64,000 bases of DNA. Origin: Limnomonas spitsbergensis. Its lineage: Eukaryota; Chlorophyta; Chlorophyceae; Chlamydomonadales. The stretch is from contig JAYJMM010000106.1 of NCBI GenBank assembly GCA_037349105.1, forward strand, positions 744,001 to 808,000, in the 5' to 3' direction. Both the position numbers and the translations under genes were made by a program. Shown here in pieces: positions 3,769 through 63,529 of this stretch. The notes under the pieces were generated by a model. It ran no database searches. It was not told the origin of the DNA and saw only the letters and a list, made by a program, of their open reading frames with translations. The first letter of the stretch is position 1, and each line of letters opens with the position of its first letter.

Positions 3769-6700
3769 ATGCGAATCTGCAGGATTTCTCTTCCGGTAAA
3801 GCTCAGCGCTAGCTCATTTCGGCTGATTAGCAGCTTCTACTTTCCAAAGGCCAAGCCCATCGTTCGCGTTAACGCATTGTTGCCATCCGGCATCGTCTCA
3901 TCCGGCGCCGTATTTCCCATCAGAGGCGCAGTCATGGAGGCCGTCCCTAGCGGCGCAGTGGCTGCGAGCAACCTGGCGAGCATCGAAACAGGCGAGAAGC
4001 TGCCGCCCGCACCCCGTCGCTCAATTTTTGTCGCTGCGATCCGTCCTTGGACTGAGCATTGTATGAACTCATGCGCAGCACGCTTCTCGCGCGCAGGAGC
4101 TGGCGGAGCAGCCGCTGCGGGTACTGCCTCCCTGGCTCCCCCCAGCGACGGCCAGCAGCCAGACCAGGTCATGGCCGAGCAAGCCCAGTCGGACCATGCC
4201 CAGGCAGGGCAGAAGCGGAAGGCCGAAGGGCAGCCCAGGAAGAAAGTGATGGACCCTAAGAAAGCTCGGGTGTGTATGGATGCCGGGCATGCGTTTAAGG
4301 CATGGGTGCTGGGCATGGTTGCATGCAGCATGGTCGTAGGCAATGGGTTTAGGGCATGGCTTAGGGCATGGGTGTATTGCATGGAGCATGGCATGGGGCG
4401 TGGGTGTAGGGCATGGGGCGTTTGTTTAGGGCATGGGTGCATGGCATGGGGCATGGCTGGCCGTTTTACCATGGATGTTGTTGGATAGGGCATGCCCATG
4501 CAGGGGTGGGCATTCCCAGGCCAGCTTGGGTATGCACATTTGGGTAGATCATGCCCATGCTGAGCGCATCAGCTCTGTCTGCCTTCATGGCTTGCAGTCA
4601 GCATGGACTTGACACGACCGGGCTTCAAATCCAGTGATTATTTTGGCACGCTTCAGCCACAATTCAACTACCCCATGGCCTTTGGCCGTGGGGGCCTGGT
4701 GCAAGGAGCCCTACTGTTCCGGCCACCGGCCATGGGCCAGTCAAGGTTTGGTCCCGATCGGCCCAGTAATGGCCGCCCGGTGGCCCCTTAAAGGTGCTCT
4801 GGTGCGCACTAAACAACACTGGCTTCCGTGACAGATCACTGTGTGTATACCGTAGAACTACTTTGACTCCGATCGTAATTAAATAATCATTGGGGTGCGC
4901 GGACATGGCTGCGCGCTGATATTAATTCAAAAATCGCCGCTGCGCGAAGCGTCAGTAAGGTGCCCAAACAACTATTTTGGGGGTGCGCGGTATGAATTAA
5001 AAACAACATTTTTTACCAAAAAAAGCGCGCCACTGTTCGATTCGACATCCGTTCAGTCATCCTTGTCAAGTGTGCCCAAATAGCCCTGCATAGTAACACT
5101 ACTGGTGACTCAGATGAGCACCACCGGTACTCGTAGCAAGCATTACTGCTCAGTTCAGCCGCCATCCACTGATGATTATGCTGACTTTTGCTGATCGTGT
5201 ACCGGAGGAGGATGACTATGCTGATTTGTGCTGACCGTGTACCGGAGGAGGATGACTATGATGACTTTTGCTGACCGTGTACCGGAGGTGGATGAATTTT
5301 GACTACCGTATGATGACTTTTGCTGACCTTGAGGGTTTTAACTAAGTTTTACTGTACTTGCTGAAAGTGCTGCGCGGAAGGAAATTTAAATTATTTCCAG
5401 TAATGTGCGGTGTTAAATTATAAGTACCTGCTGCGCGACGTTAAATTGAATTAAAATATCGTCGCTGCGCGACCGTTTTTAAATTATTTTTAGCTGCGCG
5501 ACGAAACAAATTCTTTTTTGGGGGTGCGCGGAGTCCAAGTGGTTCTCCGGTACTGTTTATTGCGTTCAGTCTGCGTTCAGTCTACGCCTAGATCACTGCG
5601 TGTATATTGCATTCATTTTGACTTCGGTAGTCTCAGTGCGCATGGCGCAGCGAAGCTCTAAGCGGCCTCTATGCCAGCTCATTGTGGCTATATCTCCACG
5701 TCATCGAGCGGGGCGGGGCAGGTGTCAGGGCTAGGTTTTCGGGATTAGGCTGGGCGCGTGGTTTAGGTGGCAGTAGTGGAACCCTGCTGACTGGACATGT
5801 ATCAGTGTTTATTCTAGTGGGTACTGGACCACCTTTGCTGGGCCGCCCCGCGGTCACCCCTGGGCCGATTCACATCAAACCTGGTCCGGCCTCCGGCCCA
5901 AGCAAAACAGGGCTGGCCGAACCAGGGGCTTGTTGCCGGGGGCCACACTGTAGCTGAACTGTTGCTGATAGTGGTATACCACTCACTGGAAAAAAACTGG
6001 CATGTTAGGTAGCCATGTCGTGGATCAGGTCCGGGTGTGGTGTAGGGTTCTGGGTTCTAGGCCAGGGTTATCTATTTATAATCTAGGAGGTGGCGGTAGA
6101 GCGGGACTCGGCTGAGGGGATGTGAGGAGTGCGGGGGGCAATCTTCGGGCATGCCCATGTCGGTTGGGCAATCTTCGGGCATGTGCATGTCGATTGGGCA
6201 ATCTTCGGGCATGTCCATGTCGGTTGGGCAATCAATGGGCATGCCCATGTCGGTTGGGCAATTATCGGGCATGCCTATGTCGATTGGGCAATCATCGGGC
6301 ATGCCACCTGTCGGTTGGGCAATCGTCGGGCATGCCCATGTCGTTTGGGCAATTCAACGGTCTCGGTGCCTCATGCCAAGGTGCTAGAGCGATATCAGCT
6401 AGGCCAGGGTGTGAAGTGATTGGGACACGACCCAGCCGCCATTGGTTTTATTCTTTTGTTATTATTATTATACCGGTAGCCTTTATAACTTCGTTAATTT
6501 TCTTATTAACTATTTAATTAATTGAAAAGGTGCCAACCGAAACAAGCTGGCCACTCCTTGGTGCCTGCCTCGCCACCCTAATATACCCGCTCTTGAATCA
6601 TCTCTTAAATCATCTCTTAAATCATCTCTTAAATCATCTCTTAAATCAGCTTTTAAATCAGCTTTTAAATCAGCTCTTAAATCAGCTCTTAAATCAGCTC

Positions 6701-7799: not shown

Positions 7800-7832
<33 letters not shown>

Positions 7833-10800: not shown

Positions 10801-13800
10801 ACCTGTTGAACCGCCTGCTCAGCCCCTCTCACACCTGTCACACTATCCTGCAGGCTGGCTGCACCCACTTGCACCTGTTGAACCGCCTGCTCAGCCCCTC
10901 TCACACATCTCACACATCCTGCAGGCCGGCTGCACTCACTTGCACCTGCTGAACCGCCTGCTCAGCCCCTCTCACACCTCTCACACATCCCGCCCACCCG
11001 CCCGCCCACCCCAACTCAGAGCCACCCAGCAAGGATGAGCTGATCAGCGCGACAGCCGCCGTTTGGGCCCACATGCAGGTAACCAGCATCGCCCGGGAGG
11101 AATGGAACTAACTTTGGATGGGAAACCTATATACCTATATATATATATATTTATTTATTTTAACGATTAATATGAAGGTCGCTTCTTCTTCTCAATCCTT
11201 TGCTTGTCATGATGAATGCTGTGTGGTCCCACATGCAGGCAACTGACATCGCTCGGGAGACAGCAGTTGATTTATAAATCTAAATAATCCTCCCAAACAT
11301 ATAAACAAAAAAGATATATAATTCAAAAAAATCATGTTGCCTGTGTACCGTAGTCACGGACGTGTTTCGTTGTTTTGATCGTTCTTCAGGGAGCAACGAA
11401 ATCGACTGTGAAAATGTTTTTGACTGGAATTTTTCACGTTCAGGGGAAACGAATCAAAAAAATCGCCAAAACAGCGATTTGTTAAGCAAGAACGAAATTC
11501 GAAAACAACGAAACACGTCCGTGACTACGGTATATCCCTCGCCAGCCGCTTAAGCATATTCTGCCGTTTCAAGGATTTGTGCGCTTACAACTAACGAACC
11601 CGCTGTTTTGTTTGACTGCAAACTATACCCACATACTTTTATACCGCACCAGTTGGAAAATAAATGCACCATTCTGCATCTGAGGATGTCGTTTGACCTC
11701 AGAGGCTACCCCTGGATCCCCCTCCTTCTCCCCGACCCGACCCAGGAAGCATCAAGTTGGATAGTGCATCCTACGTCTCTCAGTAGATGTCCCTAGTTTA
11801 GGGTTAAGGGTTGAGGCTTTTTTTCCCCGCCCCCGCGCCCGGCACCCCTCGCTCATCCTCCGACATCCCCCCCCTGACCCTGACCCCCACCCATGCCCGG
11901 CACCCCTCGCTCATCCTCCGACATCCCCCCCCTGACCCCGACCCCCACCCACCCCCGACATCCCTCGCTACACTCCGACATCCACCTCCTGACCCTGACC
12001 CCCACCCACCCCCTACATCCCTCGCTACACTCCGACATCCCCCCCCTGACCCTGACCCCCACCCACCCCCTACATCCCTCGCTACACTCCGACATCCCCC
12101 CCCTGACCCCGACCCCCACCCACCCCCAACATCCCTCGCTACACTCCGACATCCCCCCCTGACCCTGACCCCCATCCACCCCCGACATCCCTCGCTACAC
12201 TCCGACATCCCCCCCCTGACCCTGACCCCCATCCACCCCCGACATCCCTCGCTACACTCCGACATCCCCCCCCTGACCCTGACCCCCACCCACCCCCTAC
12301 ATCCCTCGCTACACTCCGACATCCCCCCCCTGACCCTGACCCCCACCCACCCCCTACATCCCTCGCTACACTCCAACATCCCCCCCCCGACCTCGCTGCC
12401 CCCACCCACCCCCTACATCCCTCGCTACACTCCGACATCCCCCCCCTGACCCTGACCCCCACCCACCCCCGACATCCCTCGCTACACTCCGACATCCCCC
12501 ACCTGACCCTGACCCCCACCCACCCCCGACATCCCTCGCTACACTCCGACATCCCCCCCTGACCCTGACCCCCACCCACGCCCGGCACCCCTCGCTCATC
12601 CTCCGACATCCCCCACCTGACCCTGATCCCCACCCACCCCCAACATCCCTCACTACACTCCAACATCCCCCCCCTGACCCTGACCCCCACCCACCCCCTA
12701 CATCCCTCGCTACACTCCGACATCCCCCCCCTGACCCTGACCCCCACCCACGCCCGGCACCCCTCGCTCATCCTCCGACATCCCCCCCCTGACCCTGACC
12801 CCCAGCCACCCCTGACATCCCTCTTTACACTCCGACATCCCCCACCTGACCCTGACCCCCACCCACCCCCGACATCCCTCGCTACACTCCGACATCCCCC
12901 CCCCGACCTCGCTTCCCCCTTATCTCCCCCCCCTTCCCCCGCCCCCCAGGAAGCGGGTATCAAATTGGATAGCGCTGCCTATCTTTCTCTGGCACGCATT
13001 GAGGCAATCAAGGGGGATGCCGGAGAGGCTCTGAAATGGGTGAGTATGGACAGGCTTCGAAATGGGTGAGAACGGATAGGGCCATTGCTTTTTTCCTGAC
13101 CCAGCTACATGTCAGCTACATGTCTGCTACATGTGAGCTACATGTCTGCTACATTTTAGCTACAGTCAGGCCAGAGGCCCCAGTTGTGGCCAGTCAATCT
13201 GCCTGGGGCACCAGTCAGGCCTTTGGCGAAGGTGGACTCGTTGCCGGGGGGGAAAAGGTGGTAGGGGACAGAAGGATGAGGTGGCAGACAGTGGTAGGGG
13301 GGAAGGCAAGGGACCATAGCAGTCTGCATATGATGTGCACCACATCGCTCGAATAGAAGAGGGTAGTCCTGTTGTAGGCAGAGCACCATATCAATCCCTT
13401 AGGTCTACCGTCCCCTCCTACACACAGCAGGCTGTCTGTGCCATCTTCTGGCAGTGAACATCCGTTGTATACCATGTGCCCTCAAAAATACACATGCACA
13501 CCATACCATACCACACCACACCACACCACACTGTCTTCCTGCCCCCCGCCACCCTCCATTCCGTTGCTAACAGGCCCTCGGTGCCATTTTGTGGCAGTGA
13601 ACAATCCTTGTAGACCTAATTTCAAACACACACATACACGCACTGTCTGCCTGCCCCCAGCCACCCTTCATCTCGCTACAATCAGGCATTTTTGCATTCC
13701 TCGGGCTCAAGATCTCGTGTCCTGTCACCCCCGCCACCTGCACACATCGCCCCCCCCCCCCCCCCCTCATACGGCCTTCTCCCCCCTTGCCCTTGCTTTT

Positions 13801-16800
13801 CTTTGATGCTGTTAAGTTTTCTTGACAATGCTCTGATTTCCCCCTACCAGGCGCGTGCGTGTGGTGCTGACCAGCAGCACGTAACCCTCCGCATCTATCA
13901 CCCTGCCATGCTGGCCTACACGCTAGCGGGCGACGTCGCCGCCGTCATGTCTATTGACAAGGAGATTGCTGCGTTTGGCAGGCGAGTGGGCGCGGTAGGG
14001 CTGTCCATTATATGAGTTTGATGACGCAAAGGGCTTCATATTTTCATACATCCGTGTTCCTCTTCAATTCGTGCTCCTCTTCAATTTTCCCGCGCTCTTC
14101 CTGTAGGATAAATGTACTTGTATTGTAATCCTACTCTTCAACTCGCCTGGTCTCATCTTGTAGAATAAATGCCCGCGTCTTTTAATCCTACACTTCAACT
14201 CGCCCGCGATCTTCTTGAAGCATAAATGCTCATGCTCATATGTTAATCCTACGCTTCAACTCGCCTGGTCTCTTCTTGAAGAATAAAGGCCTATGCTCAT
14301 ATTTGATATTTCATTAACCTGTGCTTCGTTTCAACTCGCCCGCGCTCTCCTTTTATAATCAATGTCCATGCTCGTATTTTATCAGCCTGTGCTCCGCTTT
14401 AACTCGCCTGTGCTCTCCTTGTGGAATAAATGTCCATGCTCGTATTTTCTCCACTCCATCTCGCTTTGTGTGTGTTTGCTCCTTCAGGGAACAGCTGGAC
14501 CTGACAGAAGCCGAGTACGGCTAAACCCTAAACCCTCAACCCTCAACCAACCCTTCAGGGAACAGCTGGACCTGACAGAAGCTGAGTAAGGCTTAACCCT
14601 CAACCCTAAACCCTCAACCTACCCTTCAGGGAACAGCTGGACCTGACAGAAGCCGAGTACGCTTTCTTGATCGAGGCGACCAGCTTGCATGGGACATGGG
14701 CGCAACTGGCGGGTGGGTGGGGGCGAGAATGGTTCAGGGCTGGCGGTTGGGTGGAGGCGATAAGGTTTCAGGGTTTAGGGCTGGCGGGTGGGTGGGTGGA
14801 GGCAATAAGGGTTTAGGGCCGGCGGTTGGGTGGAGGCGATAAGGGTTTAGGGCTGGCGGGTGGGTTGAGGCGAGAAGGGTTAAGGGTTTAGGGCTGGCGC
14901 TTGGGGGAGGGGATAAGGGTTTAGGGTTAAGGTCTGGCAGATGGGTGGAGGCGAGAAGGGTTAAGGTTTTAGGGCTGGTGGTTGGGTGGAGGCAATAAGG
15001 GTTTAGGGCTAAGGGCTGGCGGATGGGTAGGCGAGAAGGGTTAAGGGTTAGGGGCTGGCGGGTGGGTGGAGGCAATAAGGGTTTAGGGTTCAGGGCTGGC
15101 GGGTGGTGGAGGCGAGAAGGCTGGGCGAGGATTCATATTGGAGCTGGATCAGGAAACTAAAGGAATGTTAGGAAACTGTGATAAGGTACATACACGATCG
15201 CTGTTCTCAATGCCCCTTTGCACGCCAAGGCAGATTTGGGTGAAGATAAATGGGGAGGCTGTTTGGGCGAGGCTGCATGCCACATGGTTGACTAGGCCGA
15301 CATGAGCGCATGCAATCACATTTTGTTTGTGTGTGTGTTCAATAATTAATGGTGCAGGACCGAAATCAACCCAAAGAGCGCCGCTTTTTTATCCATTCTC
15401 CGAAAGGTCCCGTATTTTCGGATGTTGTTCAGTACGGATGACGGAGCGACTGCGCTCGGCTCAAAGACCGTTAATAGTTGGTCGATATTAGGTTACATCT
15501 CATAAGATGTATGAATCTGCTGGCCACGGAATTGACACGGATTAGTTTTATATCAGGTTACCGGTATACCCTAACACATTTGAGTTTAACAAGTTTCCAA
15601 CTGACGGGTGCGGCGTCCATGTTGCGATGCGAGTCATACTCAGTACTGGCTAAAAGATTACTGGCCGCATAAGTGTGGAGGCCGGCATGCCGCATGGGTG
15701 AGGAGGCCGGCATGCCGAATGGGTGAGGAGGCCGGCATGCCGCATGGGTGATGATGTCGGCATGCTGCATGGGTGATGATGTCGGCATGCCGCATGGGTG
15801 ATGATGTTGGCATGCCGCATGGGTGATGATGTCGGCATTCATTAGGGAGAGGAATGTGTCTGACACGAGGTCGAGCAATGCATCTGTTCGCAAATTGTCT
15901 ACAGCTTCAGATGCTTTTAATACCAGAATCTTAGACCCTCACCCTGCCAGAATCTAAGACCTTAGACCCTCAGAATCTAAGACTTTACCCCTGCCTGTCC
16001 CCAGCTGCCTAAGACCTTGGACCCTCAGAATCCAAGACCTCACACCCTACCCTTGCCTGTCTGCACAGGTGTGCTACACCGTGTGAGCCGGGAGCTCAAC
16101 CAGCTGTCCCCAAGTACTATTGCTCTGCTGGAGTCTTACTTCCGCTGGTGAGTCTTCCACGATTCGCCCGCGATCCGTATGTGTTCCTTTTTTGTGACTC
16201 AGCTACATGTCAGCTACACTCCGGCCTCTGGCCAAAGCAGCATGGCTGGCCAAAAAAGCCCCCCCCCATGGCCATTTTTGGCCAACCATGCTGCTTTGGC
16301 CACCAGTGGTTGGCCGGTCCAAGTTCGGTCCCAATCGGGCCTTTCGTGGCTGTGGGGCGGCCTGCTGAAAGGTCACTCGTAGCCGGAAAAAGGAACACTG
16401 ACGATCTGTCTGCACTTCATGTACGCATGTCCAGCATGTCCGATGTTGGGCTGAGCTGCGGGGTCCACCCACATCTTGTAATTAACCTTTTGCGGAGTTC
16501 CTGCATGCGATTTTGTGTGTGCACGTCACGTATCTTCCTATACGCCCCTTTGCACCCAAGAAATGCCGCTTCGTGCCCCTTGGCCCCGTAATAAAGCTAG
16601 GTAGCAAATTGAGCTGTGCATGTTGGCGCTGTCTTCTGAGCAGCAGCCCTCGAAGCAGCGCAACATCTATTCATGATCTGATATCTTTGCTGTGTTGCTT
16701 GCAGCCATGCAATATTCTGAGTATTTCATTACTACCATTTCAATACCCGGTTGTAGAATTTCATCCCCCAAAGAATCAATTGAAATTTTCGTCGCGCAGC

Positions 16801-19800
16801 CAGACAAAAGTTGAAAAACGGCCGCGCGCCGGCGAATTTTTGCGAATCGTTTAATTCAACGCCGCGCATCAGGTACGATAATGAAAATCGCCGCTGACAC
16901 TGCAGCAGCGATTTTTGAATTAATATTAGCGCGCATCCAGGTCATCGCACCCATTCAATAATTAATTGTGAGCAAAGTCTACCGCGTTTTACGGTACCAT
17001 CACGTGTTGTGTTTCTCACAGCGGGCGATCCCTCGAGGCCTTCAGCGCCAGATCGGCGGGCCAGCGGGAGGCCTGCGAGGCGGCGCTGGACGCGGAGCGT
17101 GACGGCCTCCGGCTGCGGCGCCTCGCTGAGTACGAGGCCGCCGAGCCCGCCCGCCAGCAGCGCCACGCGCAAGCCCTGGCGAAGCGTGAGTTGCAGGCAT
17201 CTCGGGCCCAGCAGCAGGCGCAGCGGCAAATGGAGTGGCGGACCCAGCAGCAGGCGAATACGCCGGAGGCAAGGGCGGGCTCTCCCGCCCGCTCGCTGGC
17301 GCGGCAGGACTCCCCGAAACGCACGGCGGCGGAGGCCGGCCAGCCGCCGGTGGATCCATCCGGCAAGCCGGTTCCGGAGCCGAGTAGCACCACTGCAGCA
17401 GAGGGCACCGCCGCAGGGGTCGCCGAGGCGTCCACTTCAAATGGACTCAATGTGGGGCGTCCGGGCAGTCCGGTCCTCGCCGGCAAGGGCGCTGTTGTGG
17501 ATGAGGTGGAGGAGGGTGAGGTGGAAGCTTCGGCAGTTGAGAGGGGCGCCGCGGTGGGGACTAGCTTTCCAGGTGCAGCGCCGCGGGCGGCCTGCGCGCC
17601 GCGCAGCCCGAGGCACACGGGCAGCCCGTCTGCCCCGGCCTCCCCGCTTCGCGCTGACGCGGCCTCCGGCGCCAAGGGAGCACCCGGCGAGGAGGAGGAG
17701 AGGCTGCGCGAGGCGCGTCGACGCAGGACCTGGTTGAATTACGGCGCGTCTTCGGCGTGGGAGGTGGAGGCTGGGGTGCGTGTTGATGCCAAGGGGCACT
17801 TCCAGCAAGCGGGTGGAGGCGCGCTCGAGGTGGTGGACTTGGAGGAGGAGGAGTGGTGGGTGCGGGGATGGGTGGGGATGGGTTTGTTTTTAGGTGGTCG
17901 AATTGGAGGAGGCGGGTGGTGGGTGCGGGGTTGGGTGGCAAAGGTTCCTTTTCTTGTTGTTAGGTGGTAGACTTGGGGGGGGGGGATGTGTGGTGGATCC
18001 GGGGTTGGGTGTTGTTGGGTTAATTTTAGTTTTCAGTTTTATTTTCAGGTACATTTCTAGGTTTTGTAGGTGGTGGACTTGGAGGAGAGGAGGAGTGGTG
18101 GGCGCGGGTTTGGGTGCTGCGAGGATTATTTTTTGCCACCCTCTGCATGACTCTCTTTTCCCCTCCTGTCTAGGGCATCCTTTGCAACTGTGGTTGATTC
18201 CCTCTGCATGACTCTTTTCCTCCCTCTGCATGATTCTTTTACGCCCCGTGCATGACTCTCCCCCCCCCCCCCCTCTTGTCCAGGGCATCCTTTGCAACTG
18301 CAGTTGCCGACCTGGCCATCAGCAAGGAGAACCGCAAGTCGGACTTTGAGCACTACATGGACTGGTGAGCGGAGAAGGGGGAGGGGAGAGGAGGAGCGGG
18401 GAGGAGGAGGGGAGAAGAGGGAGGGAAGAGGGGTGGGGGGGGGAGAGGAGGGAGGGGAGGGGAAAAGTGGAGAGGGAGGAGGGGAGGGGAGGGGAGGGGA
18501 AGAGTGGTGAGGGAGGAGGAGGGGGATGTGTGAAGGCAGACAGGGGACAGACCAGGGCTAGGGTTCACGGGAGGGGAGGGGATTACCTTATGAGGGTTTG
18601 GATGGTAGACTGGCAATAAGGTTGGATCGGGGGTTCAGGTTCTAGACTTCCGTGTGCCTTAGTTCAGGGTTAAGGGTGTAAGGTTACGCCCTTAAGCACA
18701 AAAATTGTCCCAAGGGATAAGGTTAAGCCCTTGAACACCTCATTCCGTGCGCCTTGCATCCTGCTCCCTCGCCACTGCTTTGATTACTTGAGGGTTGAGC
18801 ACTTTGCAACCTTCGGTAGGGCGCTGGGTGGCTGCCCCTGGGCTGATGGGAACCAAACCTTGACCAGCCTACCGCCGCCGGAGGCCCAAGCGGCGGGGTT
18901 TGTGGCGCAAAAACCTCTTTTAAGGCCAGGCTGTGGCTGAAATGTAGCTGAAGCACCCCGAAGAAAGCTGTAGCTGAAGTGTAGCTGAGGCCCCCTAAAG
19001 TAAGATGTAGCTGAATTGTAGCTGAAGCACCCTGAAGAAAGCTGTACCTGAAGTGTAGCTGAAGCACCCTGAAGAAAGCTGTATCTGAAGTGTAGCTGAA
19101 GCACCCTGAAGAAAGCTGAAGTGTAGCTGAAGCACCCTGAAGAAAGCTGAAGCTGAAGTGTAGCTGAAGCACCCTGAAGAAAGCTGTAGCTCCCTCCCCC
19201 TCTTCCCCTACTCCTCAGGTTTGAACGCAACGGGCCGTATGACATCCTGATTGACGGCGCCAACGTCGCATACTTTGGGAAGGTTGGGGGAGGATTCCGC
19301 TGGAAACAGATCATCTCCATGACCAACTTTGCCAAGGAGAGCTATCCCGGCAAGAGGGTGCTGCTGGTGAGGGGGTGAGGGGGGTCCATCGGCACCAGAT
19401 CATCTCCATGACCAACTTTGCCAAGGAGAGCTATCCCGGCAAGAGGGTGCTGCTGGTGGGAGGGGGGGATGCAAGCCCCTGATTTTTGCCCTGACCAATA
19501 GTGTCGAGGAAAGCATCCCTCAGTAAGAGAGAACTGCTGCTGAGAGGCAGGGGGGGGGAGGGGGCACGCCCCAGATTATCTTAATGAAGAACTTAGTCTG
19601 GGTGAGCAACCCCAGCAAGAGAGTACTGCTGGTGAGGTGAGGGGGCGAGGGATTTTGTTGGCACCAGATCATCTCCATGATCAGCTTTGTCATGGTAAGC
19701 ACCCTCCAGTAAGAGAGTACTGCTGGTTAAGAGGGGGGGGGGGGGGGGGGCGGGTGAAGCCAGCCACACATCATCTCCATGACCAAGTTTGTACAGGGAA

Positions 19801-47200: not shown

Positions 47201-47409
47201 TCATGTACCTTTGTCGACTGTCTAAATCCTCCCTCCCCCTGTGTCCCCTTCAGCGCCTGATGGACGCCAACCCCAACTCCTTCCGCAAGCTGGTTGCCAC
47301 CTTCTTGGAGGCCAACGGCCGCGGCTACTGGGATGCCAAGCCCGAGCAGCTGGAGAAGCTGAGGCAGATGTACATGGACGTGGAGGACAAGATTGAAGGC
47401 GTCGAATAA
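32272..47409 (+). CDS. CHLH: Magnesium chelatase subunit H (plastid), 20 exons
   Basis: Porphyrin-binding subunit that, with ChlI and ChlD, inserts Mg2+ into protoporphyrin IX, the first committed step of chlorophyll synthesis in the chloroplast. Exons: 32272-32379, 32488-32581, 32932-33092, 33419-33553, 34449-34661, 35823-35942 (GC donor), 36190-36317, 36789-36927, 37314-37659, 39502-39683, 40063-40290, 40588-40806, 42071-42307, 42586-42927, 43524-43747, 44286-44463, 44594-45041, 45520-45845, 46430-46648, 47254-47409. The sum is 4,203 nt with perfect phase: 1,400 residues plus TAA, the family's normal length. Residues 1-36 ([20 protein letters not shown]...) look like a transit peptide, and this ATG is the one in frame with the mature start [10 protein letters not shown]. 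An N-terminal ChlH-type domain precedes the CobN/ChlH domain, with the conserved [15 protein letters not shown] at about 677-691 and [18 protein letters not shown] next. All conserved blocks appear intact. Confidence 0.95.
33835..34200. repeat. ~78-bp minisatellite in ChlH intron 4
   Basis: Four units with GGAAATCTTGGGCTCCTTGA and TCTGGGAAATTTTGGGCACC, decaying at the right. Confidence 0.85.
34316..34398 (+). pseudogene. Head copy of ChlH exon 5
   Basis: ATCATAGAGGCCGTCGCGCA and following bases copy ~75 bp of exon 5 (34449) including [12 protein letters not shown], then end at TTAACTAAG. No donor, so a truncated copy. Confidence 0.8.
34662..35345. repeat. GTGTCCAAGGG-type repeats in ChlH intron 5
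   Basis: Many degenerate units built on GGTGTCCAAGGGG and GGTGCTGCAGGGTGTGTCTA with AACCCTAAAC pieces. They start at the exon 5 donor (CCCAAGGTATGT). Confidence 0.7.
35395..35615. repeat. ~22-bp minisatellite in ChlH intron 5
   Basis: About ten units of ACCAAACAGGCATCTTATTGCC. Confidence 0.85.
36158..36189 (+). repeat. Copy of ChlH exon 6 tail forming exon 7 acceptor
   Basis: CCTGTGGATGAACGTGGTGTAG at the intron end matches CCTGCTGATGAACGTGGTGCAG at the exon 6 end (35921-35942), with two substitutions, one turning CAG into TAG. That TAG is the only acceptor giving the correct frame for exon 7 (EYVPAMKGG). Confidence 0.75.
37683..39300. repeat. 48-bp minisatellite in ChlH intron 9
   Basis: About 33 units with CATCACACTTTACTATATTT and CCTGGTCCGTCCTGTGCTGT; early units lack one base (GGTCGTCC) or differ. 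The unit equals 16 codons without stops on either strand, hence 200+ codon frames both ways. Confidence 0.95.
40988..42070 (+). repeat. Eight 135-138-bp tandem copies of ChlH exon 13 head with acceptor
   Basis: Copies begin at 40988, 41123, 41258, 41393, 41528, 41663, 41798 and 41933; the true exon begins at 42071. Each has the first ~75 bp of exon 13 ([25 protein letters not shown]) plus a pyrimidine tract ending CTCTCAG. Units are multiples of three with no stop, so the frame stays open into the true exon from every copy. Confidence 0.95.
42330..42440 (+). pseudogene. Tail copies of ChlH exon 13
   Basis: GGGGCATGCAGGTAGGCAC and AGAGTGGCCGTGCAGTGCAG then GTATGC repeat the exon 13 end and donor (42285-42312). 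Confidence 0.6.
42983..43032 (+). pseudogene. Tail copy of ChlH exon 14
   Basis: CAACATGGAGCAGATCTATG through GGGTGAGCTGCATG repeats the exon 14 end with its GTGAGC donor. Confidence 0.75.
43850..44035. repeat. ~42-bp repeat in ChlH intron 15
   Basis: Four decaying units with GGGGATGGGGTTAACAATTC and TTTAGGGAATTTAGCCAC. Confidence 0.7.
44135..44200 (+). pseudogene. Head copy of ChlH exon 16
   Basis: CCCTAGGTATGTTGAGTTCT and TTTGGAGCAGATTGTGAAAG copy acceptor and first 36 bp of exon 16 (44286). Confidence 0.75.
45256..45519 (+). repeat. Three 88-bp copies of ChlH exon 18 head with acceptor
   Basis: Heads at 45256, 45344 and 45432 (GCTCTTACTCCTCCAACGGC) precede the true exon at 45520. 88 is not a multiple of three; reading from an upstream acceptor meets TGA within one unit plus. 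The last acceptor must be used for a full protein. Confidence 0.9.
46018..46062 (+). repeat. Fragment of the ~180-bp repeat inside ChlH intron 18
   Basis: CTTTCTTTCAGCATGGCCCA followed by AAGGTGTAACGTCATTAC matches the element's distal end. It is the only clear copy inside ChlH and carries a CAG that could act as a cryptic acceptor. Confidence 0.4.
46297..46365 (+). pseudogene. Head copy of ChlH exon 19
   Basis: GTGCGCACTCTGGGTGAGAC and following copy ~55 bp of exon 19 (46430) with a CCCCAG acceptor, then diverge at AAAAAGCTGCCC. Confidence 0.8.
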
Positions 47410-49638: not shown

Positions 49639-49654
49639 TTTTTTAAAGAGGCTT

Positions 49655-50415: not shown

Positions 50416-50515
50416 CCAAGAGGGCACGATGAAACCTGGGACCACAGAAGAAATACTTAGGCTAGACGTTAAGGAGGGAATGGAAACACTCAGCAAAGCA
50501 TTTGGTGCCTTTTGA

Positions 50516-54235: not shown

Positions 54236-57200
54236 CTACCTGTCCACCTCCCCCGAGTCCGTCGCCCCGTTCTGCGTCTGCGTGCGCGCGCCGCTGCCCA
54301 CCTCCCACACGACCGTGTCCATTTCCCCGCCCATGCCGTCACCCAGCGTCACCGCGTCCCGCCGCCGCATCGTCGTCAGGTGCAGTCCGTCCGCACTGAA
54401 CGACGCACTGGCCAACGAAAGCGACCCCGCGGCCCGCAGCAACAATGTGGGCGACTTGTACGTCCCTCGCCCCATGGCCCACACGCGGGCCGTCCCGTCC
54501 CCGCTGCACGTCGAGAGCCGCGCGCCATCGGGTGAGAACTGGAGCCCAAACACGTCCCCGCCATGGCCCAGCAGCACATGGTCAGGCTCCAGACCTGCGT
54601 TCCCGTTGACGCCGCCGTCCAGAGCGCCGTGGACGTCCCACAGCCTTGCGGAGCCATCCTCGTGGCCCGTCGCCAGCCGCCCGCCGTCGGGAGCGAAGGC
54701 CACGCCGCTGATCTCCCCGCCACGCCCGTCGAACGCGGCGACGCACTGGCCGCTGGTGACGTCCCAGAGCAGCGCCCGGCCGTCCTTGCTGCCGGTGGCC
54801 AGGCGGGTGCCGCACGAGGATAAGGCCAGGGCGTAGATGCAGCCGCTGTGGCCGTACCTGAGACAAATTAAAAAAAGGGGGCGGCGCTCAATGCGCCATG
54901 CACCATGCACCATGCACCATGCACCATTTTCAGTCCCCCCAGTCCGCCCAGTCCCCAAAACTCCCTAATCAAGGCACCATTCAACCACGATTTTCAAATG
55001 CACCAAACATCATTCCCAACTTCCAATCATTCAGCCCTCCCAGTCCACGCTGTCCGAAAACTCCTAGATCAATAAAATCTTAAATTCTGTATCGAATTCA
55101 TGACTTATCAGGCTAGGTTGGCTCACAACTCCAAGATCTGGTAATCTAAGAATGATCAGGCAATGTACCTCCCACTCACAATATCTGGTAATATAAGAAT
55201 GATCAGGCAACATACCTCCCACTCACAATATCTGATCATCTAAGAATGATCAGGAAATGTACCTCCCACTCACAATATCTGATTATCTAAGAATGATCAG
55301 GCAATGTACCTCCCACTCACATTATCTGGTCAGCTAAGAATGACCAGGCAATGCACCTCCCAGTCACAACATCTGGTCATCTAAGAATGATCAGGCGATG
55401 TACCTCCCACTCACAATATCTGGTGGCCGTTCAGGCGGAGGAGAGCCAGGTCATCATTCTTAGATAGGTCCCACAGGCGGGCGGTACGATCCTGGCTGCC
55501 CGTGGCCAATGTACTGCAGGAACACGAGGTACAGCAGGTGGTGAGTGAAAGGGAGACAGTGAGGGGAGGGTGGGCAGTGAGGGGAAAGTCTGATAGCCGG
55601 GCAATACATCTCTTGCTGCCCGTGGCCATTGAACTGCAGGAACACCATGTGCTCATGTACAGCAGGTAGAGAGTGGAGGGGAAACAGTTAGTGAAAGGTC
55701 CCACAGGCGGGCAATACAGTTTGGGCTGCCAGTGGCCATTATACTGCAGGAACACATAAATTCTCATATGCAGCAGGCAGAAAGTGGAGGGGAAACAGTG
55801 AGAGGAGGGTGGGCAGTGAACGGATGAGGGCGGGGACATATGCCCAGCAGTAGAGATTGCCACCGCCTGCTGCCACAGCCCCCTGTCTATTACATCAGAT
55901 GCATGCCCTTGGAATTATAGCATGACACTCCCCACACATCCACACTTCCAATGCATCTGTACTGAAGGCATCACATTTACATATTGCGGTATTGCACATC
56001 ACCCTTATGGCCCTCCAGCCCCACACCTCCCACACTTCCACACTCACCCTCCATCCATACTGAAGGCAACACAGCGCACATCACCCTTATGGCCTTCCAG
56101 GATACGCGTGCACACCGCACCCAGCCCATCCTCCTCGAGCTGCAAGAGGTCAAACAGGCACCGCACAACAGGAGGGGTTGGGGTGGAAGTAATCCATGGG
56201 CACAGTGCAACAGAAGGGGGGGGGGGGATGGAATCAGTCCAAGGATACCGATAATACCAGCTGCCCTGTTCGAGCTGCAATGTGGCAAGGTGAAAAGAAT
56301 GAGGAACTGGCTGAAGTGTAGCTCTTGTGTAGCTGATGTGTAGCTGAAACACCCTACTGTAAAAGTGTTTTGTGGCACGTGAGGCATACCCAGATTCTGC
56401 CTGCCCACCTGCCACAGCCGCACAGTCCGATCATAGCTCCCGCTGGCCAGTGTCTCGCCCGAGCTGTCGAATGCAACACAGCTCACGCCAGCCGTGTGGC
56501 CAATCAGCTTTGCGGTGCAGCGCCCCTGCACTGTCGACAGGTCCCACAGACGCGCCTGAGGGAGAGAGGAGGAGAAGGGCTGAAGGTGGGAGGCGGTGGG
56601 GAGGAACAGGGAACAAAAGGGGAGAGGATGGGGGAAGGAAGGGGAGGAAGGGAGAGGAAGGGGAGGGTGGGTAGGACAGGGAGAGGAAGGGGAGGAGGGG
56701 GAGGGAATGAGGAAGGGGAGGAAAAGGATCAGGGAGATGAAGTAGAGGAGGGGGGGCAAGGGGAGGTTGGGGATCAGAGGGTGGAAGCGAAGGAAAGGGA
56801 GGCCGAGGAGGGAGGAGTTTAGGGGGAGGAAGGGGACGAGGGGGAGGAAGGGGATCAGGGATAGTGGCAAGTGACCATGCACTTGTTGTACCTGGATCCG
56901 TACCTGGATCTGTACCTGGATCTGTACCTGGATCTGCACCTGGATCAGTACCTGGATCTGTACCTGGATCAGTACATCGATCTTAACTCGGATCTGCATT
57001 GCAGCCTGGATTGCCGTCTGTACTGCATGAAGTCTAGCAGGGTGGCTGCTGCCTCCATATCAACTTCCTAGATAAAGCTCTCGCCTCCTGCAGGTTGTTA
57101 ATCAGACCTTCTCTTTCAATCATGCAAAGCAACGGTGCGGACGCGGCCACGGCCCATGCCGCACTGCTCCCTTAACCATCACGCTCCTGTCTTTCTTTCT

Positions 57201-60200
57201 TTTTTTCGTTCAATCAAGCTTTGATTCGCTTTGCCATCAGGTTGTGCCCACGAGGTGCTGTGTCGTGCTTCCCAACTTGCAAGCTTGAGAAGTACGGCAT
57301 CCTCTAGATCTAGACCCAGGTATAGTTATACTCTTTACCCCTGTATAACAATCACATGTGGCAGTCTTCTGCTTGCCACTTTTCTCTGAAGTGCTGCATC
57401 CTCCGTATGCGAGCCAACCTCTTATGGACAGCTAAACGGGCACTTCTCTTCCGTATTCCCTACAAAACAACAGTGCGCTCGTTTACCGATGGCCTTTGCC
57501 CCATATGTACACCACCTCCTACTGGCCCACCTGACGCTACTTCTGACACACAGGGACACATGTCTGGAAGATGCAGGCATCCCCGTATGCAGGCCTCTTA
57601 TATCTCCCGACACAACAAGGCCCTCTGCCTCATCCAACGTTTCCTCCACAGAGGCACAAAGAGTGGTATGTTCACAAAAATGGATGCAACACCAGCTACA
57701 TCCCTCCCACCAGGCGTCTATGACACCCGTATCCCGCAATGGATGCTTCCCGCTGTCCCCCCTGCCACACTCTGCCGCCTTCGTCCTGATCTCCTCTTAG
57801 TTGAAGGCCTTATCATTGCCGATCTCCACAGTTATCCTCCTGCCCGGCTTGCCAACCCTGCCTTCCTTCTTGACCTCCAACACCGTTGTACTATCCATAT
57901 TGTTGAGCTCGGGTGTACCTCCAATCTACAATTCTGCCTTTCCCACAAATCCTCACAACATGCACAATTGGTACAATTGCTTTGCGCCGCTGGATGGACC
58001 CTCTCTACACCTATCATGGACCCTCTCCTTACTCCTGCCACCCACCCTCTTCCACGTCCGTTACCACTCCCTGCTACAGACATCCTCTACCCCTATGTTC
58101 ACCTCGTCATCATTGGTTGCTCTGGCATTTTCTATAAAGATATCATGCACCTCTTTCCAGTCCTTGGTATCCCACCCCTCCACGTCCCCCCAATGCTTAC
58201 ACAACTAGGAGTTCACACTGTCCAGTCTGCCTTTTTCATCCATCTGACTCCGACGTTTCCTTGAAAATAGTCCAGCCGACTGCCGGCCTGCATCTCCCCC
58301 TGTTCTAACTGACCCGCCATAACCCTTTCCCCCTTAATAAAGGGTATACAGACCGGGGCTTGGGCGTCTCGTCAACCTGTACTTCCCAAAATCCACGCCG
58401 CATCGGCGTTCTCTTTTCTTTTCTATAGATCTGGATCAAGATGTACACCCACGCCTCACCGTGTTGTCGGAGCTCCCTGTGACTAGCACGCTGCTGTCGG
58501 GCCTCAGCACGCAGCTATTGACCGAGTTGCTGTGACCCGCATTTAGATCGAGATCTACACCAGGTTTAGTTATGGATCTGGATCAAGATCTGCAACCACG
58601 CCTCACCGTGTTGTCCGAGCTCCCCGTGGCCAGCACGCTGCCGTCGGGCCTCAGCGCGCAGCTATTGACCGAGTTGCTGTGGCCCGTCAAAGTGTGTGTG
58701 CACACCCCACTACCTGACTCCCAAACACGCGCCTGCGGGCGGGGAACAAATGTATCAATCAACAGCGCTTCAGGGTTTCAGCGGGGAAAACGAGGGTTAA
58801 GTATACCGGTATGCCCTGGGGGTGAGGGAATGCGGCATCCGCGGTGGAGGTGGGTAATATGTTGTTAGCGGTGGCCTGTGGGGAAAATGTGGTCAGTGGT
58901 AGAGGGGAGGGACATGTGGTCAACTGTGCCAGTATATATTTGGCTACAAATCCACCTTTGGCAGGCAGGCCCAGCAACCCTCAAAAGCCCAATTGGATTC
59001 AAAACTGGAATGGCCTGAATGGTTGGCGGCCAAAGCAGCATGGCTGGCAACAAAAGGGTTATTTAATTGCCGGGGCCGGAGTGTAGCTGACTTGTAGTTG
59101 AGGAAAAAAAACTGCAATTTCCAGGTTCAGTTTCCAACATCTACTTCCACTTTATCCCAGTTGTTTTGCCTGGCCCTTTCAAAGAGGGCCGTTTAACGCA
59201 AGCGCATAACCCAAACCCTAAACCCTGTACCCCCCCCCCCCCTGCGCCCACCGTTCCATCTGAGCTGCCCGTAGCGATCAGCCTGCCGTTGCCCTCGGCT
59301 CCGAAACACACGCACCACACCGAGCCGCTATGCCCTCCCGCCGTCAGCGCCATCAAGGACGTATTCGCGCCGCCGGTCCCCTCCAGGTTGGTCCCCGACA
59401 TCAAGAACCCCGGCATCGATGTAGAACCGGCACCATAGGCGCCCGGCATGCCGGGCGCGGCGGCGGCGGCGGCGGCGGCCGCCGCCGCCGCCGCGCCGGG
59501 CATGGACGTGCCCTTTGGGTTGGACGGCTTGATTGGCGTGACCGGGCTGCGCGCAAAGCTGCTGCTCATCCCGTTGAAGCTCCCGCCGGGCAGCCGTCGC
59601 GACATCTGATCCTCAAGCGGGGTCACGTCCCAAACCCGTGCCGTCATGTCGCCGCTCCCTGTCGCAATCTGGCTCCCGTCCGGGCTGAAGGCCAGCGAGA
59701 AAAGGTCCCCGGTGTGTCCCTCTAGCTTCTGGCACTGCCGGCCCTCAAGGTCCCACACACGGAGCCGGCCGTCAACACAGCCCGTGGCCAGCCGTCGACC
59801 GTCGGGGCTGAACGCCAGCGTCCATACATCACCTATCTACGGGGGGTGAGAAAAAGGGTGGGGGGGAGGGATGGAATAGGCGTCAGCTGGCCACACCAGT
59901 CACACCTGTCACACTTGAAATGTCATTTCACACTTTCCACACACACCTGAGATCTACTGTGCTCACGTAAGCCACTGAGGCACACAGCCACTATGTGTAG
60001 TTCCACACGGTCACACTCATTTCATGATGGTCACACCTTGTAAGGGCACGGTCACACCTCAATGATGGTCACACATCTGGTCAACTGCAGGCGGAGCTCA
60101 TACTACCCCACCTTCCTCTCGAACCTCACATACTTGCCATTCAAACACCTCATACCTGCCCCTCGAACCCCTTATACCTGCCATTTGAACACCTTCCCCT

Positions 60201-63200
60201 TGAATTACACATACCTGCCATTCAAACCCCTTGAACCTGTCCCTCGAGCCCCTTGTGCCCTCTATTTGAACCCCTTGCACCTGCCCCTTGAAATCCACAC
60301 AACTGCCATTTGAACCCCGTATACCTGTCCCTTGAACCTCACATACCTGCCCCTTGAGCTTGACAGCGCAGCGCCCAGTGGCGGTGTCAAACAGTCGCAC
60401 CGTCCCGTCCCGGCTGCCAGTGGCCACCTTTTCACTGTCGGGGCTGAAGGCCACGCACCACACTTGGTAGCCCGTGGCCTGAGTGTGAACCTGGAAGGTC
60501 CTGCAGCATTGGTTGGTGCCCAGGTCCCACAACTGCAGGGGAGGGGTGAGAGGGGGATATGCAGTTGGTCAGACGGAGGGGAGGGGGTTTATACCGCAGG
60601 TCAACACTTGCAACCCGTGGCTTGGGTCCCATAGCTGAGGGAGCGGGGGCGAGGGACACGCAGCCCGTCAGATGGGGGGGGCTGACACACTGCGGGTCAC
60701 CACTCACCAAGTCACAGTCCGTGGACTGGGTCCCACAGCTGTGGGGAGAGAGAGCAGATGCACGTAGCGAGTCAGGGTTCAGGGGATAGGACGTCTACAG
60801 GTTACGCACCTCGAGGGTTTTGGTAGGAGCCCAGGTTTTAGTGCTGAGGGGAAGGGGGAGAAGAGTCAAAGCGGGTCAGGGATTATTTTATTTTTAGTTT
60901 ATTATTATTAATTAATATTAACATAACCCGTATTATTATTAATATTAATATTATTATTACCGGTATTCTTATTATTTACTACTATTTAGGGGGAAGCAGG
61001 TCCCTGGGCGCCAAAAGGCGCCGGGGGGCTCATTTAGATGCTGGTACATCATTTTAGCATCCGCCCCATGGTCCCTGGGCTCAGACAGGTGAGTTGATAT
61101 GGTGGATCTAGATCTAGTCACAGATGTGTCCCAACTTGGGCACATGCAGGTGAGTTGAAATGGTAGATCTAGATCTAGTCACAGATCTGGCCCAACTTGG
61201 GCACAGGCACATGAACTGATACGGTGGAGCTAGATCTAGTCACAGATCTGGCCCAACATGGGCACATGCAGGTGAGTTGAAATGGTAGATCTAGATCTAG
61301 TCACAGATCTGGCCCAACTTGGGCACAGGCACATGAACTGATATGGTGGAGCTAGATCTAGTCAAAGATCCGGCCCACCTTAGCCGTCCCATCCTCGCTG
61401 GCGGTGGCTAGCAGCTTGCCCCCTTTGCCGAATGCAACGCAGCAGACAACTGAATCGTGGCCCTTGAGCCTCGCCGTGCAGCGCTGTGGCCAGCAGACAA
61501 AAACGAGATTATGCGCACGCCAGCACATCATTAGATTTAACTTTAATTGTAGATAATTGGATTATGCATAGACTAGGGCATCCGTCAGAAATATGACAGT
61601 AACAGCGGCAGTAACAGGAGCAGTAGCAGGTGCAGCAGCAGCAGTAGCAGCTGTAGCAGCTGTAGCAGCAGCAGCAGTAGCAGTAACAGCAACTGCAGCA
61701 GCATCAATAGGGTGGGTCCTTGTATTTCTACTGAAGACAGTCTGCGCGCTCAATCTGAAGCAAACAATGAGGTTTCGGTGTAAGGAGCTTGTCATCGATC
61801 TTGCGCTGGGGATAGGGTTTAGGGTTTAGGGTTTAGGTAATCAGGTGGGATACCCATCCATGCCCTTGAAAGAGGGTCCCTTCTACACCACATGCAATAC
61901 CCTGCCATAACCATAGAACCATCCTCCAGCTCGTAACGACTCCAATCGCATCCTCCGGCTCGCGACGACCCCACTCGTATCCTACGGCTCGTAACGACCC
62001 CACTCGCATCCTCCAGCTCTCGAATACCACAAAAGCATCCTCCCGGACTTAATCGGGCATCCGGCTATCACTGTGTGCTCATTGCCAGAAAGGAATGTCT
62101 GGCAGGGCCGTCCAATCCCACTTTCCCCATCCAATGTCAGCCAGACCCCCTTTGCTTTATGAGCGGCTCGGCTACATTTCAGCTACATTTCAGCTACATT
62201 TCAGCTACATTTCAGCTACATGTGGAGTCAAGGAGGCATGTGGGGATGGATGGGAGGATGGCAGCCTTCGCATGGCAGCTTTACGAATAGGAGTTCTGTG
62301 CTGTCATTCGGTGTCTAATGTTTATATCAGCTCGGCCTGACCACATCCTGTATTTCAGCTACAGTTCAGCTACATTTCAGGTACATTTCAGCTACATTTC
62401 AGGTACAATTCAGCTATCTACGGAGCTTTGGGTGGAGGCCTCCAGCGCAGCCAGCCTTGCTGCTAAGGCCTATCTCTGTAGGCCTATCAAGGGTGGGTCC
62501 CGATTGTGTCTTTGGCAGCCGCAGGGCGGCCTGCCAAAAGTGGACTCATGGCTGAACAACGAGATACGGCATTCTGCATCTAAATTCTGCGTACTACGTA
62601 CTGCATACCCCCATCCTTGGACACCTTAGTGTGCAGAGAGTAAAGTGGAGCATGCCCTTTTGCATTCTATAGGGTACCAGTGAAAACACCTGAAGGTTCA
62701 CACACACACATTCCAAGGTTCAAGACAGGTTGAAACTGCAAAGCTATTACCTGTGCTCCCACGTCCCACACGCTAACTACGCCATCAGAGCTCCCCGTTG
62801 AAAGGCAATACTCCTGAGTTCCACACCTAGTTCACACAGCATTCACACCTGTACTCCCACGTCCCACACACTAACGACGCCATCAGAGCTCCCCGTTGAA
62901 AGGCAATACTCCAGGGTTTCACACCTAGTTCACACAGCATTCACACCTGTACTCCCACGTCCCACACACTAACGACGCCATCAGAGCTCCCCGTTGAAAG
63001 GCAATACTCCAGAGTTTCACACCTACTTCACACAGCATTCACACCTGTGCTCCCACGTCCCACACACTAACGACGCCATCAGAGCTCCCCGTTGAAAGGC
63101 AATACTCCAGAGTTTCACACCTAGTTCACACAGCATTCACACCTGTACTCCCACGTCCCACACACTAACGACGCCATCAGAGCTCCCCGTTGAAAGGCAA

Positions 63201-63529
63201 TACTCCAGAGTTTCACACCTACTTCACACAGCATTCACACCTGTGCTCCCACGTCCCACACACTAATGACGCCATCAGAGCTCCCCGTTGAAAGGCAATA
63301 CTCCGGAGTTTCACACCTACTTCACACACCATTCACACCTGTGCTCCCACGTCCCACACACTAACGACGCCATCAGAGCTCCCCGTTGAAAGGCAATACT
63401 CCAGAGTTTCACACCTACTTCACACAGCATTCACACCTGTGCTTCCACGTCCCACACGCGTGCAGTGCCATCAGAGCTCCCGGTTGCAAGGCATGCAACT
63501 GCCCCTGGCTGAAAGGTGCAGCTCGTCAC
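54236..63529 (-). CDS. WD40-repeat protein, 5'-partial, nine visible exons
   Basis: Exons in transcript order: 63529-63437, 61483-61379, 60532-60347, 59836-59252, 58732-58607, 56555-56409, 56139-56048, 55513-55415, 54857-54236. Phases close to 684 codons ending in TAG at 54238-54236. At least 12 WD blades are readable, with motifs such as GSSDGTARVWD, GHTGDLFSLAFSPDG, GHSNSVNSCALRPDG and GSYDRTVRLW, enough for two beta-propellers and so a scaffold role. Blade 5 is followed by an 80-residue insert with an alanine run (about 59420-59610). The first visible exon starts inside a blade, so the gene continues past the window's right side or in the unrecognised 63530-64000 repeat. The last codon overlaps a GTAGGC donor-like word, so a further 3' exon is possible, although I see none. 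The exact family is not recognised. The gene is convergent with ChlH. Confidence 0.85.
55130..55414 (-). repeat. Tail/donor copies of the WD40 exon at 55415-55513
   Basis: Five ~60-bp units each contain GAATGATCAGGCAATGTACC and TCCCACTCACAATATCTGGT, the reverse complement of the exon end and its GTGAGT donor. They extend into the following intron. Confidence 0.85.
55560..55765 (-). pseudogene. Two head copies of the WD40 exon at 55415-55513
   Basis: TGGCCATTGAACTGCAGGAA (55622) and TGGCCATTATACTGCAGGAA (55734) copy acceptor plus exon head and the GGGCAATAC part, with decay. Confidence 0.7.
55975..56035 (-). pseudogene. Tail copy of the WD40 exon at 56048-56139
   Basis: CATCACCCTTATGGCCCTCC repeats the GH.GDV-coding part of that exon, then diverges. 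Confidence 0.55.
56570..57005. repeat. Purine-rich tract and GTACCTGGATCT repeat
   Basis: 56570-56850 is GGGGAGGAAGG low complexity. 56886-57000 has about nine 12-bp GTACCTGGATCT units. Confidence 0.75.
57356..58264 (+). mobile_element. 5'-truncated non-LTR retrotransposon ORF (C-terminus)
   Basis: A 302-codon frame lies antisense in the WD40 intron between 58607 and 56555. It reads as the end of a LINE polyprotein. RMRANLLWTAKRA is followed by a C-C-H-C zinc knuckle (C48, C51, H68, C73), then the RHNKA block (85-89) and a tail with ELGCTSN, QHAQLVQLL and GCSGIFYK. This succession is typical of the region after the reverse transcriptase in algal LINE-like elements. No reverse transcriptase YXDD or endonuclease is present upstream, so the copy is dead on arrival by 5' truncation. 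The frame is intact to its stop, suggesting a recent insertion. The 3' UTR continues to about 58425 and ends in a T/C-rich tract. Confidence 0.7.
58265..58428 (+). mobile_element. 3' UTR of the LINE-like element
   Basis: Follows the ORF stop directly. It contains CTTCCCAAAATCCACGCC and a CGGCGTTCTCTTTTCTTTT end. Nearly the same sequence is at 29597-29780, which defines it as the element's 3' end rather than host intron. Confidence 0.65.
58425..58560 (-). pseudogene. Tail copy of the WD40 exon at 58607-58732
   Basis: GCCTCACCGTGTTGTCGGAG through GAGTTGCTGTGACCCGCATT repeats about 85 bp of the exon with its GTGAGG donor. ATCTGGATCAAGAT links the copies. Confidence 0.75.
58930..59114. mobile_element. 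Copy of the CAGCTACAT family
   Basis: Shows GGCAGGCAGGCCCAGCAACC, CCAAAGCAGCATGGCTGGC, GGGCCGGAGTGTAGCTGAC and an A-run end with ACTG. Lies in the WD40 intron between 59252 and 58732. Confidence 0.5.
60065..60346 (-). repeat. Tail/donor-derived repeat of the WD40 exon at 60347-60532
   Basis: About eight ~33-bp units with ATACCTGCC.TT.GAACCCC; on the minus strand these read GGGGTTCAAGGGGCAGGTAT, i.e. the exon end plus GTATGT donor. Confidence 0.75.
60540..60850 (-). pseudogene. Head copies of the WD40 exon at 60347-60532
   Basis: CCCGTGGCTTGGGTCCCATA and CCGTGGACTGGGTCCCACAG repeat the acceptor/WD-coding head region in ~90-bp units with decay. Confidence 0.5.
61075..61378. repeat. ~68-bp minisatellite next to WD40 exon 2 donor
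   Basis: Four units with GATCTAGATCTAGTCACAGA and TCTGGCCCAACTTGGGCACA. The CGGCCCACCTTAG end of exon 2 (61379) resembles the unit's CTGGCCCAACTTGG, so this too may derive from the exon tail. Confidence 0.75.
61590..61720. repeat. GTAGCAG/GCAGCA repeat
   Basis: Imperfect CAG/GTA triplet array in the WD40 intron; poly-Ala/Val frames on both strands are artefacts. Confidence 0.75.
62155..62560. mobile_element. One or two copies of the CAGCTACAT family
   Basis: Two separate arrays of CAGCTACATTT words (62170-62222, 62356-62415). They are followed by GGTGGGTCCCGATTGTGTC, GCAGGGCGGCCTGCC and AAAGTGGACTCATGGC, the family's distal block. Ends are not clear. Lies in the WD40 intron between 63437 and 61483. 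Confidence 0.4.
62735..63436 (-). repeat. Seven ~95-bp tail copies of WD40 exon 63437-63529
   Basis: Each unit has the last ~60 bp of the exon, coding YCLSTGSSDGVVSVWDVGAQ-like residues, plus a GTGTGA donor-like end and GAATGCTGTGTGAA. Copies agree with each other more than with the exon (GVVSVW against GTARVW), so the array expanded from one early copy. Confidence 0.9.

Follow-up and report, generated by a model that had tools for sequence, protein, structure and literature searches.

Introns of the green alga Limnomonas spitsbergensis carry partial copies of the ends of their own neighbouring exons. We analysed a stretch of 64,000 nucleotides (nt) of its genome (assembly GCA_037349105.1, contig JAYJMM010000106.1, positions 744,001 to 808,000; hereafter the window) that holds three genes: PRORP, which encodes proteinaceous RNase P, ChlH, which encodes magnesium chelatase subunit H, and a WD40-repeat gene. 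The copy pattern is genuine, keeps strictly to the expected side of the exon, and was seen in each of the genes that we tested, within the window and beyond it. A high genome-wide rate of short local duplication, combined with the survivorship of those duplications that cross an exon end, quite probably explains it, and a single suggestive case points to the exchange of a splice site between copies.

Gene models were built from protein homology and GT/GC-AG splice sites alone, with no cDNA, and yielded 40 exons, 37 introns and 74 exon ends in the three window genes. The PRORP set omits the 5' exons and the last exon (~27641-27706), the ChlH set comprises 19 of the 20 exons found (the first, 32139-32168, was left out), and one WD40 exon end, 55415, was entered 2 nt off. 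Except at that end, the window introns are GT-AG, with two GC-AG. The window ChlH protein shares 90% identity with its Chlamydomonas eustigma counterpart. We also searched the genome (260,226,709 bases in 124 contigs, the window lying on contig C106) and added three genes from outside the window, a second ChlH copy (ChlH-b) and two CDC48 copies, so that six gene copies with 76 introns and 152 borders were tested.

To detect copies, we compared the first 36 nt of each exon (its head) with the upstream intron and the last 36 nt (its tail) with the downstream intron, and scored a border as positive at p ≤ 0.01 against chunks of other genes' introns, paralogous families excluded. The counts given here replace earlier ones for CDC48 and ChlH-b, in which the null pool held the paralogue's introns and shared copies were lost. 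Because the test is blind to copies with only ~10 exon bases, all counts are lower bounds. In the window, 27 of the 74 exon ends were matched by a significant partial copy within the adjoining intron (heads 15/37, tails 12/37), and the same test applied to the wrong side of each exon gave 0/37 and 0/37. The genes outside the window behaved alike (heads 8/39, tails 13/39, wrong-side controls 0/39 and 0/39). Altogether 48/152 borders were positive on the right side and 0/152 on the wrong side (0/76 and 0/76), with head and tail copies similarly frequent (23 vs 25). At least one copy was present in 22 of 37 window introns and in 41 of 76 introns overall.

A self-comparison of the window (blastn, E ≤ 1e-3, limited to same-strand pairs within 3 kb of each other) returned 250 local repeat pairs, and many copies can be read letter by letter. 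An earlier, sequence-only reading of the window had listed copies by position, and most of these were recovered by the self-comparison (14488, 14557, 17895, 22810, 22888, 23645, 23948-24226, 34316, 42983, 44135, 46297, 55130-55410 and 62735-63436). That reading was also right that copies lie on the expected side of the exon, as the empty wrong-side controls confirm, and that they occur in all three genes; its "nearly every intron" was too generous, and its total of more than 40 copies can be reached only if the units of arrays are counted singly (98 nt × 7.6 and 135 nt × 8.6, for example). A further listed position, 8182, adjoins a telomere-like CTAAACC array and falls in the part of PRORP outside the gene model.

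Is the exon border itself special? We applied the identical test every 25 nt inside introns; introns shorter than 260 nt gave no such pseudo-borders, which left 67 of 76. Across the six genes, pseudo-borders were positive in 944 of 2432 trials (473/1216 and 471/1216), compared with 48 of 152 true borders. Since pseudo-borders 25 nt apart in one array are not independent, we compared means per intron, which were 0.35 for borders and 0.27 for pseudo-borders, a difference of 0.08 with a bootstrap interval of -0.005 to 0.165 (67 introns). Borders should show a small excess regardless, since in an exon-containing pair just one of the two copies can drift freely. No clear excess of copies at borders was thus found by the pseudo-border test in the six genes. 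The sequence-only reading had held that the density at borders is far beyond that of normal introns, and had named as its own refutation a genome-wide finding that copies are no commoner at borders than random tandem duplication would make them; by that yardstick, the border claim is not supported in the genes tested.

The window's duplication load is likewise ordinary among the regions sampled. Local duplications covered 0.19-0.48 of its pieces and a mean of 0.32 (median 0.23, range 0.015 to 1.0) of 18 other 10-kb regions, which were taken at round-number positions on contigs hit by earlier searches and are an arbitrary sample, not a random draw; Markov controls gave 0.04. Three of the regions (L033, L031 and L043) had 79-100% local-repeat coverage and look satellite-like.

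The anatomy of the copies is that of small direct duplications. Figures refer to 47 of the 48 copies, the tail copy in ChlH intron 5 having been dropped from the splice-signal and spacer tests. Copies lie close to their source in the same orientation, with a median offset of 126 nt (interquartile range 88-161). Identity over the exon part runs from 0.73 to 1.00 with a median of 0.91, in agreement with the earlier suggestion of graded ages and a continuing process. In a true tandem unit the far half of the spacer has to be homologous to the DNA on the other side of the copy, and this held for 24 of the 46 testable copies (one further spacer was too short). Homology reaches into the intron for 2 to >80 nt, so that its limit is not tied to the splice site. 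ChlH introns 3 and 17 had hinted at copies cut exactly at AG, and hence at an RNA-level or splicing-linked origin, a reading that we reject in view of these variable intron extensions. Inside exons, repeats are rare (11 of 380 36-mers, in WD40 exons 4 and 9, the long PRORP exon and ChlH exon 2), as expected if, as the earlier reading proposed, junction-spanning duplications survive through the one intact exon and exon-internal ones are purged.

We favour the following scheme. Short local duplications would arise at a high and continuing rate over non-coding DNA. One that crosses an exon end would leave one intact exon with its splice site, the extra edge being spliced out with the intron, and so would be tolerated; one lying wholly within an exon would mostly break the protein and be lost. 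The surviving copies would be inert, accumulate changes, and at times grow into arrays. The molecular route is probably fill-in at staggered breaks followed by end joining, in part with templated filler; for filler, polymerase-theta repair is a known route. Arrays may occasionally let a functional splice site pass between units, as one case discussed below suggests. The long introns of the alga may have been lengthened in this way: in the available text of the genome paper the mean intron of the merged annotation is 788 bp (PMC11228838), and part of a study of six core-Reinhardtinia species gives medians of 198-343 bp (PMC8226300), means and medians being different measures.

Paralogous genes give a view of how long copies last. 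The two CDC48 copies (contigs C99 and C39) have 14 exons each and share 13 of 13 intron positions; over exons 2-14 the encoded proteins have 98.5% identity, the fourfold sites differ at 132 of 327, and the introns are hardly alignable. Border copies occupy 7/13 and 6/13 of the introns, mostly at different positions. Copies of the same kind and position in both genes number three, one head (intron 6) and two tails (introns 7 and 10), and independence expects 2.4. Thus, most copies arose, or were lost, after the split. ChlH-b lies on contig C19 (C19:2266436-2276656), of which 8.5 kb were read; it differs from the window gene at 183 of 565 fourfold sites and shares 13 of the 14 intron positions compared. 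Both paralogues have the border copy of ChlH intron 16, alike in sequence and position, which shows that copies can persist for long. For PRORP no paralogue was found, all 9 genome matches falling in the window's own gene, which seems to be single. The CDC48 and ChlH pairs, on different contigs with largely the same introns, possibly stem from an old segmental or whole-genome duplication.

At the score applied, flanks could be aligned between paralogues in 4 of 26 shared introns (ChlH 11, 12, 16 and 17), and exchange is clear only in intron 12. There, each paralogue has several units made up of an exon tail and its donor. The flank of the used donor in gene a (the window copy) matches an internal unit of gene b at an identity of 0.91, compared with 0.71 for b's used donor, and the exon tail of b is 0.94 identical to b's own internal unit and 0.84 to the exon tail of a. 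Read most simply, these alignments mean that the functional donor may have shifted to a different unit, after a duplication in one lineage or a deletion in the other. Gene conversion between a and b is possible as well, as the identity of 0.91 exceeds what divergence at fourfold sites suggests. Weighing against a change of donor, the donor flank of b does align at the corresponding place in a, with a score of 46 vs 100. The array of intron 16 speaks neither for nor against exchange, and the match in intron 11 lies in an array. More broadly, and tentatively, border arrays might form a reservoir of splice sites, in which the functional donor would pass between units by unequal exchange or new duplication; paralogous sites at the same coding position would then not be co-descended, and exon ends, intron lengths and occasionally introns would turn over. 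We regard this wider proposal as doubtful.

Could the copies instead be kept for a function, serving as alternative exons or splice sites? Most of them do carry splice signals. Among the copies that reach the border, AG is kept in 17 of 19 heads and GT or GC in 16 of 20 tails, 33/39 together; without that filter the figures are 19/23 and 16/24. The claim that every copy brings an extra splice signal accordingly fits most copies but not all. Retention is what exon identity predicts (33/39 vs ~0.81 expected, p 0.69), and an apparent sign of selection on the splice sites of copies (p 0.025 with 0.68 assumed as the expectation) disappeared once measured identity was used. Offsets are blind to frame: they fall 17/15/15 by remainder modulo 3, so that only 17 of 47 are a multiple of three. 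Splice signals are thus not kept above their surroundings, nor is frame, in the copies examined. Frame-blind spacing and decay of splice signals at the rate of the surroundings point to inertness; the copies appear, from their sequence, to be unused, and retention for function is improbable. A targeting of duplication to exon-intron borders, with splicing-tied breaks or R-loops making true hot spots, is unlikely too, if somewhat less so. It would account for the higher mean at borders per intron and for the pooled counts outside the window, which lean towards borders (21/78 vs 141/710 pseudo-borders). Zero lies within the interval of the per-intron difference, however, slower decay of pairs with one conserved member predicts a small excess by itself, the pooled counts in the window lean away from borders (27/74 vs 803/1722), and the intron homology has no fixed cut point. 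Several of our observations nevertheless weigh against duplication plus survivorship as the whole account. Given the pooled counts outside the window and a per-intron interval that only just takes in zero, a modest border excess beyond that due to slower decay of exon-containing pairs is possible. In 22 of 46 copies the spacer shows no homology past the copy, and part of these may not be plain tandem duplications; either the spacers have decayed, or filler arrived together with the copy, or the copy is itself a templated insertion. Templated insertion is also the better fit for a 20-nt stretch at 44547-44566 in intron 15, just upstream of the acceptor, that exactly repeats part of the interior of ChlH exon 44594-45041.

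The copies might also mark the birth of introns by duplication of exonic segments. ChlH intron 5 of gene a is the one strong case: a 33-nt copy of the tail of the preceding exon, matching at 29 of 33 positions, ends exactly where the acceptor does, and ChlH-b has a weak similar fragment ~70-90 nt before its acceptor. ChlH intron 9, at an AAG|GTG site, is found in the window gene and not in ChlH-b, and it holds exon-tail copies; it may have been gained in the window gene or, equally, lost in the paralogue. The signature of birth, an intron end resembling the upstream tail or an intron start resembling the downstream head, was close to chance over the six genes (p ≤ 0.05 in 4/76 and 4/76 introns), and the intron positions of both paralogue pairs are nearly all shared despite frequent border copies. 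We consider intron birth very improbable as a general explanation. Least of all do we credit an artefact in the assembly of repeated units, which the sequence-only reading had named as another way to be wrong. According to the available text of the genome paper, the published assembly was built from noisy PacBio continuous long reads (CLR) with Illumina polishing (PMC11228838); but units of ~50-240 nt fit within single long reads, point changes separate copies from their sources, and genes on three further contigs show copies of the same kind.

Telomere-like heptamers (CCCTAAA/TTTAGGG) are enriched. They occur 57 times in the window against 10.7 expected and 53 times against 18.6 expected in 180 kb of other regions, whereas 16,059 nt of exons contain none. 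Within introns, TTTAGGG in the sense direction falls 16 times in the 5' half and once in the 3' half. We considered CCCTAAA filler as a cause of the copies, which the counts do not support: heptamers are present in 15 of 41 copy-bearing and 8 of 35 copy-free introns, and the copy-bearing introns are longer.

Genes, exon-end copies and related features of the window. Positions count from its first nucleotide; heads and tails are those of the exon named.
Feature	Position	Strand	Remarks
PRORP gene (proteinaceous RNase P)	11020..25368	+	12 modelled exons, 11 introns; spliced alignment to P0241, P0242, P0247, P0245
PRORP, tail + donor copy, exon 11020-11078	11218..11259	+	
PRORP, head copy, exon 12950-13039	11717..11781	+	
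PRORP, two 71-nt units with head + acceptor, exon 14630-14712	14481..14590	+	
PRORP, tail + donor copy, exon 17022-17855	18068..18116	+	
PRORP, head + acceptor copy, exon 18284-18364	18125..18196	+	
PRORP, tail + donor copy, exon 19219-19366	19396..19469	+	
PRORP, 51-nt × 29 array	19817-21311	+	derived from region of tail + donor copy 19396..19469
PRORP, head copy, exon 21929-22003	21747..21811	+	
PRORP, two head copies, exon 22968-23033	22811..22914	+	telomere-like spacer
PRORP, head + acceptor copy, exon 23768-23863	23631..23699	+	
PRORP, array of tail + donor copies, exon 23768-23863	23948..24267	+	
ChlH gene (magnesium chelatase subunit H)	32443..47406	+	spliced alignment to C. eustigma P0001; Pfam CobN-Mg_chel
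ChlH, head copy, exon 34449-34661	34315..34393	+	
ChlH, tail copy, exon 35823-35942	36157..36189	+	ends exactly at next acceptor (GC-AG intron)
ChlH, intron 9	39684..40062	+	missing in C19 paralogue; exon-tail copies at 39775-39803 and a second, weaker
ChlH, acceptor + 15 nt copy, exon 40588-40806	40354..40403	+	
ChlH, 135-nt array, acceptor + head, exon 42071-42307	40904..42070	+	
ChlH, tail + donor copy, exon 42071-42307	42404..42489	+	intron 12 (proposed donor change)
ChlH, tail + donor copy, exon 42586-42927	42985..43029	+	
ChlH, acceptor + head copy, exon 44286-44463	44130..44186	+	
ChlH, 88-nt array, acceptor + head, exon 45520-45845	45252..45515	+	related copy in paralogue
ChlH, acceptor + head copy, exon 46430-46648	46294..46357	+	
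WD40-repeat gene	54335..63529	-	9 modelled exons; Pfam WD40; query stitched from own open frames
WD40, 47-nt array, ~10 exon bases + donor, exon 55415-55513	55128..55414	-	below border-test sensitivity; array extent elsewhere to 55424
WD40, two acceptor + head copies, exon 55415-55513	55595..55819	-	
WD40, tail copy, exon 56048-56139	55931..56018	-	
WD40, tail + donor copy, exon 58607-58732	58424..58539	-	
WD40, weak copy, 11-nt tail + donor, exon 60347-60532	60138..60188	-	
WD40, weak copy, acceptor + 10 nt, exon 60347-60532	60625..60680	-	
WD40, 98-nt array, tail + donor, exon 63435-63529	62749..63434	-	

Some details of these genes stand apart from the copies. In both paralogues the donor of ChlH intron 5 (35943-36189) is GC, within GCAAGT, and PRORP intron 3 likewise begins with GC. 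By eye, the head of the WD40 intron that follows exon 55415-55513 (55360-55440) resembles part of that same exon in inverted orientation.

With an adjacent partial copy at about one third of the tested exon ends, the alga provides a natural range of copies, some fresh and others decayed, which can be used to measure the tolerance of spare splice sites and the turnover of splice sites and introns. Gene prediction and exon-level searches in the L. spitsbergensis genome will meet many false exon ends. We found no report of border copies in this alga or its order in the open-licence library that was searched, and the available text of the genome paper (PMC11228838) makes no mention of them.

Which known systems do the copies resemble? 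In vertebrate break repair, as described in the available part of one study, CST and Pol alpha-primase fill-in followed by end joining yields small tandem duplications (PMC8355091). The likeness lies in short, local, sequence-independent direct copies of tens to hundreds of bases; the difference is that those duplications were studied in vertebrate cells, whereas in the alga the process is known from its products alone, about half the spacers have no detectable homology, and the copies are dense in introns. Intron gain through tandem duplication of an exonic AGGT segment, described in the parts available of two papers (PMC3443670, PMC2891723), also makes spare splice sites by local duplication, but there a duplication inside an exon creates an intron, whereas in the alga it crosses the end of an existing one. 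The growth of minisatellites in introns resembles the 98-nt and 135-nt arrays, from which it differs in that the alga's units include an exon end and its splice site. A 601-base copy-bearing stretch, the one examined in this way, was matched elsewhere in the genome through its telomere-like and 41-nt repeat part and not through the exon copies, and copies match their own exon above a null made of other genes' introns; the same element in the introns of many genes was not found in these comparisons. Introners are reportedly elements that are copied among many genes and change intron content rapidly. The alga is like them in rapid change of intron content across many genes, but introners are shared across genes, whereas the alga's copies each derive from their own neighbouring exon.

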